From contig NZ_JACJOX010000049.1 in the NCBI RefSeq assembly GCF_014695775.1, positions 62,001 to 126,000 of the forward strand: a stretch of DNA of 64,000 nt. Direction: 5' to 3'. The stretch is from Leptolyngbya sp. FACHB-60. GTDB lineage: Bacteria > Cyanobacteriota > Cyanobacteriia > Phormidesmidales > Phormidesmidaceae. Positions 22,572-61,825 of the stretch are shown piece after piece. Positions within the stretch are counted from its first letter, which is position 1, and every line of letters begins with the position of its first letter. The notes beneath the pieces are model-generated. The model had not been told where the DNA came from, did no database searches, and saw nothing but the letters and a program-made list of their open reading frames with translations. The position numbers and the translations under genes are program-made.

Positions 22572-24647
22572 ATGGAGTATTGGGAATTTCTGCTGCAAAA
22601 GGAGGGTGACCAGAGCTGGTTGCCCCTCGACACCTCCCAGGTAGAAATTTTAGAGGGCCGCTACCGTGTGATGGCCCACACGAGCCACACCAATACCCCG
22701 GTATATATTGAGATTGGCCAGCTCCTGCACGATTCGCAAAGCGATCCGTCCCGGAATCGCCAGCGCTCTGAGGGCGATTCCGGGACGGATACTCGTTCTG
22801 AGTCGGTTCCCGAACGCTTCACGAATCGCGTGCCGCCTCAACGCCGTACCCTGCGTCGCCAGGGCGAAATCAATGAAAACGGCCTGATGGTTGTCATGCC
22901 CTTTACCCGCTTAGGTGAGGGAACATGGGATATCCAATGCGCTAGTGCGATCGCCCCAGAGGCAAACCCAGAAGATGCCGATGCTCCCTCACCCTGGCGC
23001 TATGCGGTGCAACTGCAGGTGGTGGCCCAAGACTCCGCCGACGAGGGCGACTGGTTTGCCGATGACGGCAGTGCTGGTTTAGGCGCGATCGCCGCCTCTC
23101 GCCTACCCCTAGCTGCTGAAGCCGCCTCGGTTCCGATCATAGAGCTCCAGGCCGCAGCGGCTGCTATGGACGCGTTTCAGAGTCAGCTGGCCGCCTCAGC
23201 TCAGGCTCCCTGGGCCTACGGGCTGACCCTGCCCCATGCGGCGCTCTTGGGCAGCGCTGGTGAAAGCCTGGGGCTAACGGCGACGGTGACTGGCCCCTCT
23301 GACGGCGCTTGCCCGCCTCTGACCCTGGTGCTACGGCTATCGGACCCCCAAACAGCGGTTACTGTGGCGATGGCTCCGGTGCCGCTGGCGGTGGCGATGC
23401 TGCCTAGCACCATGACGCTGACCGTAACCGTGCCCACTCAGCTATCGACCCGGCTGCTACTAGGGGAAGTAGGGCTCTTTGTTGGGACTGAGATAGCAGC
23501 CCTACAGCGATTTACGGTCACGGTGGATGTGGCCTCGCTGTTTGATGCGATCGCCAACCAGGCTGAAACCGAATCAGGTCTAGACGTTGTCTTCCCAGCC
23601 GAAGACTTGGAGGAAGGCCCGGCCTCTCCCCTGCCCCCTGCCCCCGATCTCAAAACCTGGGACATTGTCGGTCGGTCGGCACCGCCTCGGCAGATGCCCA
23701 TTCTTACTCTGCCCCGCAACAGTTCTGAGTTGCCGCCCAAAATTTACTATCCCTCTCCCCACGAGGCGGCCGCCCGTCAACCGTCGCTGCCCCTGGTAGG
23801 TCGCTCTCGCCCCGTTCCGCCGCCCTCCGGCGATCGCAGCCCTGACAGTCTGAGCGATCCCGCTACGCCCCGCCCAGAGCCAGTCCGGGGGCTTAGCTTG
23901 CCGCCGATTGCCTCGCCGCCCCAGGCCGATGATTCCATTGCCATCTTGACTGGGCAGGCATCTCCTAGTGCCATTTCTAAACCCCGTGATGCGGTACCCC
24001 AGCTGATGTCCCACGAGGCCATGGGGTTCAGAGACCTCAAGCTGCAAGACCGCTTTTGGAATCGACTCAACGATCTAGCCATCAACCTTCAGCAGGAGGC
24101 GATCGAGCAGCGCAGCGAGGTCGCCGCTGCCCCGCTGGAAACTCTGGTAGGAGCTCCGGTTGAGCCGCCGCCGTTTATCCCGTTTGTCGGCGAGGTGGTG
24201 ATCTATGAAGACGAGGACCCCACCCTGCGCGACTTAGAAGCGGCGGCGGTGCCTGTCCCCCAGACCGACGAGCCACCTGAGATGGTGACCCCGCCCATGC
24301 CCCTCCTGGAGCTACCAGAGGGTGACCTGATTGCGGGTGAGCCAGTAGTCGTGACTCTGCGGGTGCCTTTTCACCCCAACCGCCTGTACCTCAAAGTGTG
24401 GATTACTGACCCCCAAACCCGCACCCTGGCCGACGAGCCTCGCCAGGTGCTCAACTTGCTTCCCAACGGCCAGGGGCAGCTTGAGGGCAATCTCCAGCTA
24501 ACGGCTCCCTTTGGTTGTTTAGAGGCGTGGTTTGAGGCCATTGCTGTAGACATGGTCACCCAGCAGGAGAGCTATAAGGTCTCGGTCAGTCGTGCGATCG
24601 CCCCTGCCGGACTATCCCCAACGTCCTTAGACGAATTTCAAATTTAG
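22572..24647 (+). CDS. Large cyanobacterial hypothetical protein, proline-rich, with an in-frame repeat-element insertion
   Basis: 691 residues; no named family recognised. The N terminus MEYWEFLLQKEGDQSWLPLD is a compact domain. Residues ~57-86 (around RNRQRSEGDSGTDTRSES) are encoded by a short repeat element (see 22744-22829) and look foreign. The middle has Ala/Val-rich beta-like sequence; ~350-480 is a Pro/Ser-rich linker. A C-terminal beta domain (ELPEGDLIAGEPVVVTLRVP, LYLKVWITDPQTRTL, LEAWFEAIAVDM) may be Ig-like. No signal peptide or membrane helix. ATG 22572 is preferred to a TTG six bases earlier. Confidence 0.75.
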   Translation: MEYWEFLLQKEGDQSWLPLDTSQVEILEGRYRVMAHTSHTNTPVYIEIGQLLHDSQSDPSRNRQRSEGDSGTDTRSESVPERFTNRVPPQRRTLRRQGEINENGLMVVMPFTRLGEGTWDIQCASAIAPEANPEDADAPSPWRYAVQLQVVAQDSADEGDWFADDGSAGLGAIAASRLPLAAEAASVPIIELQAAAAAMDAFQSQLAASAQAPWAYGLTLPHAALLGSAGESLGLTATVTGPSDGACPPLTLVLRLSDPQTAVTVAMAPVPLAVAMLPSTMTLTVTVPTQLSTRLLLGEVGLFVGTEIAALQRFTVTVDVASLFDAIANQAETESGLDVVFPAEDLEEGPASPLPPAPDLKTWDIVGRSAPPRQMPILTLPRNSSELPPKIYYPSPHEAAARQPSLPLVGRSRPVPPPSGDRSPDSLSDPATPRPEPVRGLSLPPIASPPQADDSIAILTGQASPSAISKPRDAVPQLMSHEAMGFRDLKLQDRFWNRLNDLAINLQQEAIEQRSEVAAAPLETLVGAPVEPPPFIPFVGEVVIYEDEDPTLRDLEAAAVPVPQTDEPPEMVTPPMPLLELPEGDLIAGEPVVVTLRVPFHPNRLYLKVWITDPQTRTLADEPRQVLNLLPNGQGQLEGNLQLTAPFGCLEAWFEAIAVDMVTQQESYKVSVSRAIAPAGLSPTSLDEFQI
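22744..22829 (+). repeat. In-frame palindromic repeat element, copy A
   Basis: Positions 22774-22829 (56 bases) align without gaps to 58840-58895, with 48 identities; the 22 bases at 22785-22806 are identical. Ends GCGATTC and GAATCGC form a 7-bp terminal inverted repeat. Upstream, 22744-22761 is an exact reverse complement of 22773-22790, adding an 18-bp hairpin. The element lies inside an open frame and is read as protein (GTDTRSESVPERFTNR). Confidence 0.85.
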
Positions 24648-58706: not shown

Positions 58707-60443
58707 GTGAGTAATCTGGTCTGCTTTCCGTTCGGTGCGGGTCACGGCCAAGAAGGGCTGTGCCTAGAGCTGCGCATGGGGCCACGGCGCATTGTGCTTG
58801 ACTGTGGCCTGCGCGATCTGACGTCACTAGAGGTGGCGCGCGATCACGGAACGGATACTCGTTCTGAGTCGGATCCTGAACGCTCTGCGAATCGCATCGC
58901 TACCGCTGACCTACTCTTTTGTAGCCACGCCCACAGCGACCACGCTCGCGGGGTGTGGGAGTTTAGTCAGCAATTTCCCCAGGTGCCCATCTACGGTAGT
59001 GAGGTCACGGCCCAACTGTTGCCGCTGAACTGGCTTGGGGAAGACGTGCCACCTCACCTGTGCCAGGCATTGCCCTGGCAAACCCCCATTAGCCTGGCCG
59101 ACGATCTCACCGTGCAAATTTGGCCCGCCGGGCACTTGCCGGGAGCCGCCTGCGCTCTGTTTACCTACCACGCGCCCCAGCGCCCCTACACCGTGTTTTT
59201 CACGGGCGATTTTTTCATGTCCAATTCGCGGCTGGTGGATGGGTTGCCCCTAGAGGCGCTGCGGGGGCTCAAGCCAGACGTACTGATCATCGAAGGTAGC
59301 TCTGGGTCTGCCCGCCATCCCCACCGTCGCCAGCAGGAGAATCTGCTGGCCAGCACGCTCCATGGTCTAGTGCAGCAGGGGCGCTCGGTGCTGCTGCCCA
59401 CGCCAACCCTGGGCATTGGTCAGGAGCTGGTGATGCTGTTGCGCAGCCATTACCAATTCACCGGCCAAGATATCACCGTCTGGGTCGATGAAACCGTGGC
59501 GGCAGGCTGCGACTTGTATCTGGAGCTGATGTCTGCATTTCCCAGTAGCGTGCAGAATTTTGCCCGTCACCAGCCGCTGTTTTGGGACGAGCGCATTTTG
59601 CCTCGCGTGCGCCGCTTAGGCATAGACGGGCATCCCCAGGGCGATTCTTCTTGTGCCCCCTGCATTGTGATTGCCCATCGTGAAGCCGATCTCAGCGACT
59701 ACTGCCTCGCCTCGGCCCAGCCCTGGACTGTGCTGCTGCCCGATTCGTTTGCCACCGCCGTTGCCGATACAGTGCTGGGTACGCCCAGTACCGCTGGAGC
59801 CACTCTGGGCTGGCTGCAAACCCTGGCTGCCGAGCTAGAGTCGGAGCGGGTGCAGCTCGACACCTATCAGCTCACCACCCACAGCGATCGCGTCGGCACC
59901 ACCCAGCTGATCCACAACCTCAGGCCCCAGCACGTTGCCTTTGTGCATGGCAACCCCACCCATCTAGCCGATCTGGCTGGGCTAGAAGAACTGCAAACCC
60001 GCTATCAGCTCCACCTGCCCTCCGCCGGTAAGGAAGTGGAGTTTCCCATTGGCGATCGCTTCATTCAGCCCGCCGCCCCCGATCCGGTCTTTGAGGGCGA
60101 AATTACCCAGGTCGACGACAGCGTACTGCTGCTGCTGCCGGAAGACCTCACCACCGACCCTCGCTGGACGGCCTTGGCTGATACCGGCCTAGTGCAGGCC
60201 CGCTGGCAGGGCAACGATTTGGTGATCAAAGGGCTAACCCAGCGTGACCTGCTGCGCACCGTAACGAGTGGAGATGCCCCCTGGCAACCGCCCAGCTGCC
60301 AAACCTGTCGCCACCAGCGAGAGGGGCGCTGCCTCGGTGGCGATTCTCCCCTGTACGGGCTGCAGGTCAGTCCTGATGGGGTGTGTCCTGCCTTTGAGGC
60401 CCGTCCAACTCGACCAGAGCGGGATGATGAGGCGACGGCTTAG
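58707..60443 (+). CDS. Metallo-beta-lactamase-fold hydrolase (beta-CASP-like) with an in-frame repeat-element insertion
   Basis: 578 residues from GTG 58707. HxHxDH zinc motif HAHSDH at 74-79 after ADLLFCS, a later GHLPGAA, and FTGDFFMSNSRLVDGLPLEA; the C-terminal beta-CASP-like region includes LTTHSDRVGTTQLIHNLRPQ and FVHGNPTHL. RNA-processing exonucleases have this plan, but the substrate is unknown. A short C-terminal Cys cluster (CQTCRHQREGRCLGG ... CPAF) may bind zinc. Residues ~48-63 (GTDTRSESDPERSANR) come from a repeat element and interrupt the fold just before the metal motif. Confidence 0.85.
   Translation: MSNLVCFPFGAGHGQEGLCLELRMGPRRIVLDCGLRDLTSLEVARDHGTDTRSESDPERSANRIATADLLFCSHAHSDHARGVWEFSQQFPQVPIYGSEVTAQLLPLNWLGEDVPPHLCQALPWQTPISLADDLTVQIWPAGHLPGAACALFTYHAPQRPYTVFFTGDFFMSNSRLVDGLPLEALRGLKPDVLIIEGSSGSARHPHRRQQENLLASTLHGLVQQGRSVLLPTPTLGIGQELVMLLRSHYQFTGQDITVWVDETVAAGCDLYLELMSAFPSSVQNFARHQPLFWDERILPRVRRLGIDGHPQGDSSCAPCIVIAHREADLSDYCLASAQPWTVLLPDSFATAVADTVLGTPSTAGATLGWLQTLAAELESERVQLDTYQLTTHSDRVGTTQLIHNLRPQHVAFVHGNPTHLADLAGLEELQTRYQLHLPSAGKEVEFPIGDRFIQPAAPDPVFEGEITQVDDSVLLLLPEDLTTDPRWTALADTGLVQARWQGNDLVIKGLTQRDLLRTVTSGDAPWQPPSCQTCRHQREGRCLGGDSPLYGLQVSPDGVCPAFEARPTRPERDDEATA
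58840..58895 (+). repeat. In-frame palindromic repeat element, copy B
   Basis: 56 bases, gap-free alignment with 22774-22829 (48/56 identical; 22-base identical core at 58851-58872). The left end is GCGATCA, the right end GAATCGC. Same reading phase as copy A, so both hosts carry the peptide GTDTRSES-x-PER-x-x-NR. The 18-bp hairpin found left of copy A is absent. Confidence 0.85.
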
Positions 60444-61098: not shown

Positions 61099-61353
61099 AT
61101 GCAAAGTATCGAAATCCAGCTGCCGGATACAGTTTTCTCCGCGCTTCGCAAAGCGCCAAAGGAATTTGTCCAGGAAATGCGAGTGGCCGCAGCGGTCAAA
61201 TGGTACGAACTCGGGGAGGTCTCCCAGGGCAAAGCGGCTGAAATTGCTGGGTTGTCTCGGGCGGGCTTCATTGATGCCCTAGCTCGTTACAAGGTATCAG
61301 TGTTTCAGTACACCGCTGAGGAACTAGCGCAGGAGCTAGGGGATGCTGATTGA
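61099..61353 (+). CDS. UPF0175 family antitoxin-like protein
   Basis: 84 residues. IEIQLPDTVFSALRKAPKEF, MRVAAAVKWYELGEVSQGKA then AAEIAGLSRAGFIDALARY is the UPF0175 pattern with a helix-turn-helix-like segment. These are typical small partners of DUF3368 PIN-like toxins. It overlaps the next gene by 11 bases, as expected for a toxin-antitoxin pair. Confidence 0.85.
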   Translation: MQSIEIQLPDTVFSALRKAPKEFVQEMRVAAAVKWYELGEVSQGKAAEIAGLSRAGFIDALARYKVSVFQYTAEELAQELGDAD

Positions 61354-61825
61354 CAGAGTTGTGGTGAATGCTTCGCCCCTGATTGTGCTTTTTAAGAGCG
61401 GGCAAGCCGACCTGCTGCCGAACCTTTTTCGTAAAGTCTTAGTCCCCCAGGCTGTTTGGCAAGAAGTGACTATCCCGCAGGATGATGTAGCCAGCCGTCA
61501 ACTGCCCGGTTCTGCTTGGGCTTTGCCAACCGAAGTTTTAATTAGCCCCGAAATCGCTGCTTGGGATTTGGGTGCAGGAGAATCTGCTGTACTTAGCTAT
61601 GGATTTCAAAACCCTAGCTATCGAGCCATTGTTGACGATGCTGCCGCCCGACGCTGTGCTCGTTCGTTGGGAATTGCCGTTTTGGGAACTGGAGGCATAA
61701 TCGTTTTGGCAAAACGACGTGGGCTGATCGACTCCGTAGACAATCGCCTAAAGCGCTTGCAAGATGCTGGACTTTGGCTGTCTGAGAGTGTTGTTGCCAT
61801 GCTCAAACAGCAAGCTGGGGAGTAG
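61343..61825 (+). CDS. DUF3368 PIN-like toxin
   Basis: 160 residues. DUF3368 family: VVVNASPLIVLFKSGQADLL (the Asn replaces the usual first PIN aspartate), a central acidic LGAGESAVLSYGF and IVDDAAARRCARSLGIAVLG, then LGTGGIIVLAKRRGLI. PIN-like nuclease fold; with UPF0175 it forms a probable type II toxin-antitoxin module. Confidence 0.82.
   Translation: MLIDRVVVNASPLIVLFKSGQADLLPNLFRKVLVPQAVWQEVTIPQDDVASRQLPGSAWALPTEVLISPEIAAWDLGAGESAVLSYGFQNPSYRAIVDDAAARRCARSLGIAVLGTGGIIVLAKRRGLIDSVDNRLKRLQDAGLWLSESVVAMLKQQAGE

Follow-up and report, generated by a model that had tools for sequence, protein, structure and literature searches.

What kind of sequence lies within two unrelated genes of the 64-kb window (the whole stretch of 64,000 nucleotides analysed here), and how could it have come to lie there in frame? 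An earlier note on this DNA took positions 22744-22829 for a copy of a mobile-looking palindromic repeat, with a second copy at 58840-58895. The gapless match itself was borne out, with 22774-22829 and 58840-58895 agreeing at 48 of 56 positions, including a 22-nt exact run. An inner 20-mer was found at only these two places in the window, and none would be expected in shuffled sequence. Both copies begin at codon position 2 of their host genes. Taken together, the data described below very probably reflect a non-autonomous mobile element of very small size, belonging to the same kind as SDR5 of cyanobacteria, that inserts into the octamer HIP1 (GCGATCGC).

Three size forms of the element exist: the 32-nt S, the 56-nt M, and the 77-nt L. 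All have common ends, and they represent net gains of 24, 48, and 69 nt, respectively, relative to the empty site. The extent originally claimed for copy A proved too small, as the segment is a composite of two copies, A1 and A2, lying in inverted orientation to each other and 13 nt apart. The features at the two loci are:

22729-22829: composite feature comprising copies A1 and A2.
22729-22760, plus strand: copy A1, S form, 32 nt, net gain of 24 nt, two 11-nt hairpins in a split HIP1.
22761-22773, no strand: host spacer of 13 nt separating A1 from A2, also found in the relative L065.
22774-22829, minus strand: copy A2, M form, 56 nt, net gain of 48 nt, GDSGTDTRSESVPERFTNR when read on the plus strand.
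22791-22814, minus strand: inner module of copy A2, 24 nt (TTCGGGAACCGACTCAGAACGAGT), which converts S into M, from the alignment of the S and M forms.
22744-22790, no strand: 18-bp perfect inverted repeat of A1 with A2, arms at 22744-22761 and 22773-22790.
22572-24647, plus strand: host gene A, encoding a conserved protein with no Pfam hit.
58840-58895, minus strand: copy B, M form, net gain of 48 nt (16 codons), RDHGTDTRSESDPERSANR when read on the plus strand.
58857-58880, minus strand: inner module of copy B, 24 nt (boundaries ± ~1 nt), missing from the same site in genome G018.
58707-60443, plus strand: host gene B, encoding a metallo-beta-lactamase-fold RNase/exonuclease-like protein (Pfam domains Lactamase_B_2 and RMMBL).

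The 18-bp perfect hairpin noted previously is real, but rather than being an accessory of one element it results from pairing between A1 and A2, i.e., with a second, inverted 32-nt copy. The terminal repeats GCGATTC/GAATCGC hold for copy A but not for copy B, which has GCGATCA/GAATCGC. In L065, the position of A1 in host gene A is occupied by the empty site ACGATCGCC. Relatives have either the S form or no element at the A2 site, close relatives carrying S where the source genome has M, and the 24-nt inner module is missing in L065 and L077 to L079; distant relatives possess neither A1 nor A2. In a low-confidence structural model, the host A insert is predicted to form a loop, with residues 54 to 89 unstructured and flanked by two predicted strands. 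The insert in host B is present in 5 of 26 genomes and absent from the other 21, and in many of the orthologs the empty site is GCGCGATCGCATC, i.e., HIP1. The single-sequence fold of host B (pLDDT 37) was uninformative. At 61099-61825 of the window, two neighbouring small ORFs resemble, as judged by eye, a UPF0175/PIN-type toxin-antitoxin pair.

The S form reads GCGATTCGCGAAGCG-ATCCNNNNNGGAATCGC, M is S with TTCGGGAACCGACTCGGAACGAGT added after position 15, and L contains another 21 nt. The S unit comprises two 11-nt hairpins, TCGC-GAA-GCGA and TCCN-NNN-NGGA, flanked by the HIP1 halves GCGAT and ATCGC; its net size is 24 nt, and the nested modules measure 24 and 21 nt. In the second hairpin, the pair formed by positions 20 and 24, left free in the search pattern, was paired in 89% of copies against 46% when shuffled, with both G..C and C..G occurring, although this covariation comes mostly from two subfamilies (one G..C, one C..G) and the remaining pairs are near-invariant and so little informative. 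An M-specific long-range stem was considered and rejected, as covariation support was absent. None of the six frames of S or M contains a stop codon, which is unremarkable for S (18% of shuffles) and remarkable for M (2.5%). Rfam gave no match above the gathering score, with only microRNA hairpins below threshold; the viral contigs searched contained no exact match, and the phage records searched matched only at tRNA-Asp genes.

HIP1 is about 56-fold over-represented in the window, with 83 occurrences against ~1.5 expected from base composition. When the flanks of 39 source-genome copies were searched in genomes G008 and G018 and the junctions were read, the orthologous empty sites were found to be mostly shorter by exactly 24, 48, or 69 nt. 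Among 16 such empty sites, those of hosts A and B included, eight were exactly GCGATCGC and three were one base off; given 83 HIP1 per 64 kb, the chance of at least eight HIP1 empty sites in 16 is approximately 1e-19. The other five were diverged or not recognisable as HIP1, perhaps owing to later divergence of the site.

The source genome (Nodosilinea-type, 5.9 Mb in 84 contigs) carries at least 43 copies according to BLAST and pattern searches, a search-based lower bound that leaves out the misplaced entry C21:203775, and the orthologs mostly lack the peptide. This confirms the earlier note's central claim of a dispersed, mobile-looking element lying in frame in unrelated genes, and it is the opposite of the situation, just two copies and a peptide always present in the orthologs, that the note had named as pointing to shared ancestry. 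The S form was detected in 19 of 26 Nodosilinea genomes with an ungapped pattern that favours the 32-nt length, the reversed control pattern giving no hits. A search of 38 genomes for the M form gave 18 carriers, which belong to Nodosilinea except for one weak case. Across the class, 27 of 388 genomes proved to carry S, representing 7 of 159 genera, and the highest count was 74 copies in a genome of another family (G049, L329 to L338). This patchy spread across families suggests either transfer or the retention of an old family of elements. With two mismatches allowed, the copy numbers in G049 and in G240 (30 copies, other family) are far above that of any Nodosilinea genome.

About two-thirds of the source-genome copies (28/43) lie inside ORFs that are coding-like in codon usage, the calls being made from codon usage and Pfam. 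Lengths that keep the reading frame were observed in 28 of 28 coding copies and 12 of 15 non-coding copies, with the caveat that the ungapped search introduces a length bias for S. Most host genes encode proteins with strong Pfam domains, including GGDEF/EAL proteins, zinc dehydrogenase, RmlD, an EF-G-like GTPase, hopene cyclase, RecJ, an AAA ATPase, an amine oxidoreductase, an APH-type kinase, DUF3086, a histidine kinase, COX15, and an MBL hydrolase. Preservation of phase, proposed earlier as a check, did not hold over the copies: several frames and both strands are used, and the translated inserts differ accordingly (e.g., GDSGTDTRSESVPERFANR, GDSRSDPSRNR, and AIREAIRPGIA). Since S and M are stop-free and frames and strands vary, what is conserved is the hairpin DNA and not one peptide, and there is no selection on a single peptide. 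Of the S copies sampled in other families, G049 included, nearly all are in ORFs (here called by length only). An in-frame S copy was also observed in Planktothrix agardhii plasmid p1 (NZ_LR882935.1; L265:2001-2032), within an XamI-type restriction-modification methyltransferase gene and beside the catalytic NPPY motif. The EF-G-like GTPase ORF of the source genome (L024:864-2540, contig C8 of G000) encodes ~560 aa compared to ~690 in relatives, which may point to a truncation or frameshift lying downstream from the insert.

Individual sites have changed more than once. The EF-G-like GTPase gene carries an S insert in 4 of 24 genomes, the rest having mostly GGCGAT/CGCATG, and the hopene cyclase gene carries one in 6 of 13. 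On a tree built from host B and the EF-G-like protein with the insert columns removed, the minimum number of changes was at least four for the EF-G-like gene, at least three for hopene cyclase, and two for host B. Such homoplasy means either repeated hits on one HIP1 site or precise loss of the insert. The forms also switch at a given site, mostly by 21 or 24 nt: M in the source genome corresponds to S in G018 at the host B site and to S in close relatives at the A2 site; M and L alternate among relatives at M_C31_34612, M_C22, and M_C31_23890, and S and M at S_C19_3503; and at M_C31_60946 the relatives differ between M, S, and a 20-nt single-hairpin form. This last form, GCGATTCCGGAATGGATCGC, was seen in L233 (G008:C6:170200-170560) where relatives carry S and M. 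A seeming same-site M copy in L228 lies elsewhere in that locus and was left uncounted. Possible routes for the switching are precise nesting, precise loss, or conversion between copies, the direction of each change being one we infer.

SDR5 is reportedly one of the small dispersed repeats of Nostoc described by Elhai et al. in 2008, whose units are said to measure 21 to 27 nt, to occur nested, and to have a conserved secondary structure with compensatory changes; possible RNA intermediates were reportedly described as well. That unit size is matched here by the net 24 nt of S and by the 24- and 21-nt modules. SDR5 repeat modules insert precisely between HIP1 nucleotides 3 and 4 (PMC4390886), and precise insertion inside HIP1 is likewise what the present element displays, the likeness being to the description in that paper. 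A named cyanobacterial element of this kind therefore exists, although the earlier note knew of none. We also found 24-nt double-hairpin units splitting HIP1 in a Nostoc plasmid, which resemble the element in the first hairpin only, the second being different, and similar HIP1-splitting units in Chroococcidiopsis and Gloeocapsa plasmids, near-identical in Chroococcidiopsis and in some cases under annotated genes. What sets the element apart from SDR5 is its nested 24- and 21-nt modules, its entry in frame into numerous conserved genes, and its patchy spread over multiple families. Elements of this kind are known already; what is apparently new is the invasion of coding sequence in frame, the turnover of modules, and the wide patchy distribution, along with the homoplasy at single HIP1 sites and the same-site size switching. 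Cyanobacterial MITEs such as Nezha are also non-autonomous and bounded by terminal inverted repeats, but are IS-like and 70 to 300 bp long (PMC3733652).

Other origins for these repeats have to be weighed against an SDR5-like element. Least credible is genuine membership of the Rickettsia palindromic element family, to which the sequence had been likened: both enter unrelated genes in frame and are translated there, but the Rickettsia elements are about 150 bp long and encode a conserved peptide (PMC10969869), compared to 32 to 77 nt, several frames without a conserved peptide, and an 8-bp HIP1 target here, so that the resemblance is one of analogy. It is scarcely more probable that no insertion took place and that a shared ancestral peptide was lost from most orthologs; precise loss restoring HIP1 could account for single sites, but not readily for the same sequence turning up both in proteins that are unrelated and between genes, nor for the restriction of the host B insert to 5 of 26 genomes.

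An improbable but better-founded idea is that of a REP/REPIN-type element whose hairpins are acted on by a Y1 (IS200-like, RAYT) transposase, given the short dispersed hairpin repeats, small size, and many copies, and the presence of Y1 transposases in 22 of 26 genomes of the genus. REPs are extragenic, however, whereas the copies here are mostly genic and split HIP1. Moreover, G005, G007, G010, and G011 contain 5 to 24 S copies with no Y1 hit, while 7 of 7 genomes without S copies have Y1 genes, and this lack of correlation weakens the case for a Y1 enzyme. Somewhat less unlikely, though still doubtful, is that there is no dedicated mobility at all and that the short hairpin sequences are carried from one HIP1-bearing site to another when repair involves template switching or gene conversion centred on HIP1. 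The element ends are HIP1 halves and could provide homology, and the S/M/L changes at one site resemble conversion between copies; yet a homology of five to eight bp is very short, and the exact 24-nt units and hairpins conserved across families suggest a defined element.

Under the preferred reading, that of a very small SDR5-like mobile element, a unit enters GCGATCGC and adds exactly 24 nt, and extra 24-nt and 21-nt modules can lie within it, giving gains of 48 and 69 nt. Because each of these gains is divisible by three and neither S nor M contains a stop, 8, 16, or 23 codons are added and the frame remains intact. The HIP1 target, the sizes, and this frame neutrality are shown by the comparisons above. 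Mobilisation would occur in trans through a putative activity cutting at or near HIP1, with a hairpin strand, either RNA or single-stranded DNA, possibly serving as the intermediate that is copied or transferred. Coding copies would survive by landing in tolerant loops.

HIP1 itself is a long-standing puzzle. In a proposition that we regard as evenly balanced, HIP1 octamers in several cyanobacterial families may receive 24-nt hairpin modules that leave the reading frame undisturbed, with gain, nesting, and loss all possible at one coding site; HIP1 would in this way permanently supply conserved proteins with in-frame peptide insertions. The element would rank among the smallest mobile elements known and have a defined 8-bp target. 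As the insertions are frame-neutral, foreign peptides are added to apparently intact enzymes. With filled and empty sites both available among close relatives, the way in which the element moves and the part played by HIP1 are open to direct testing.
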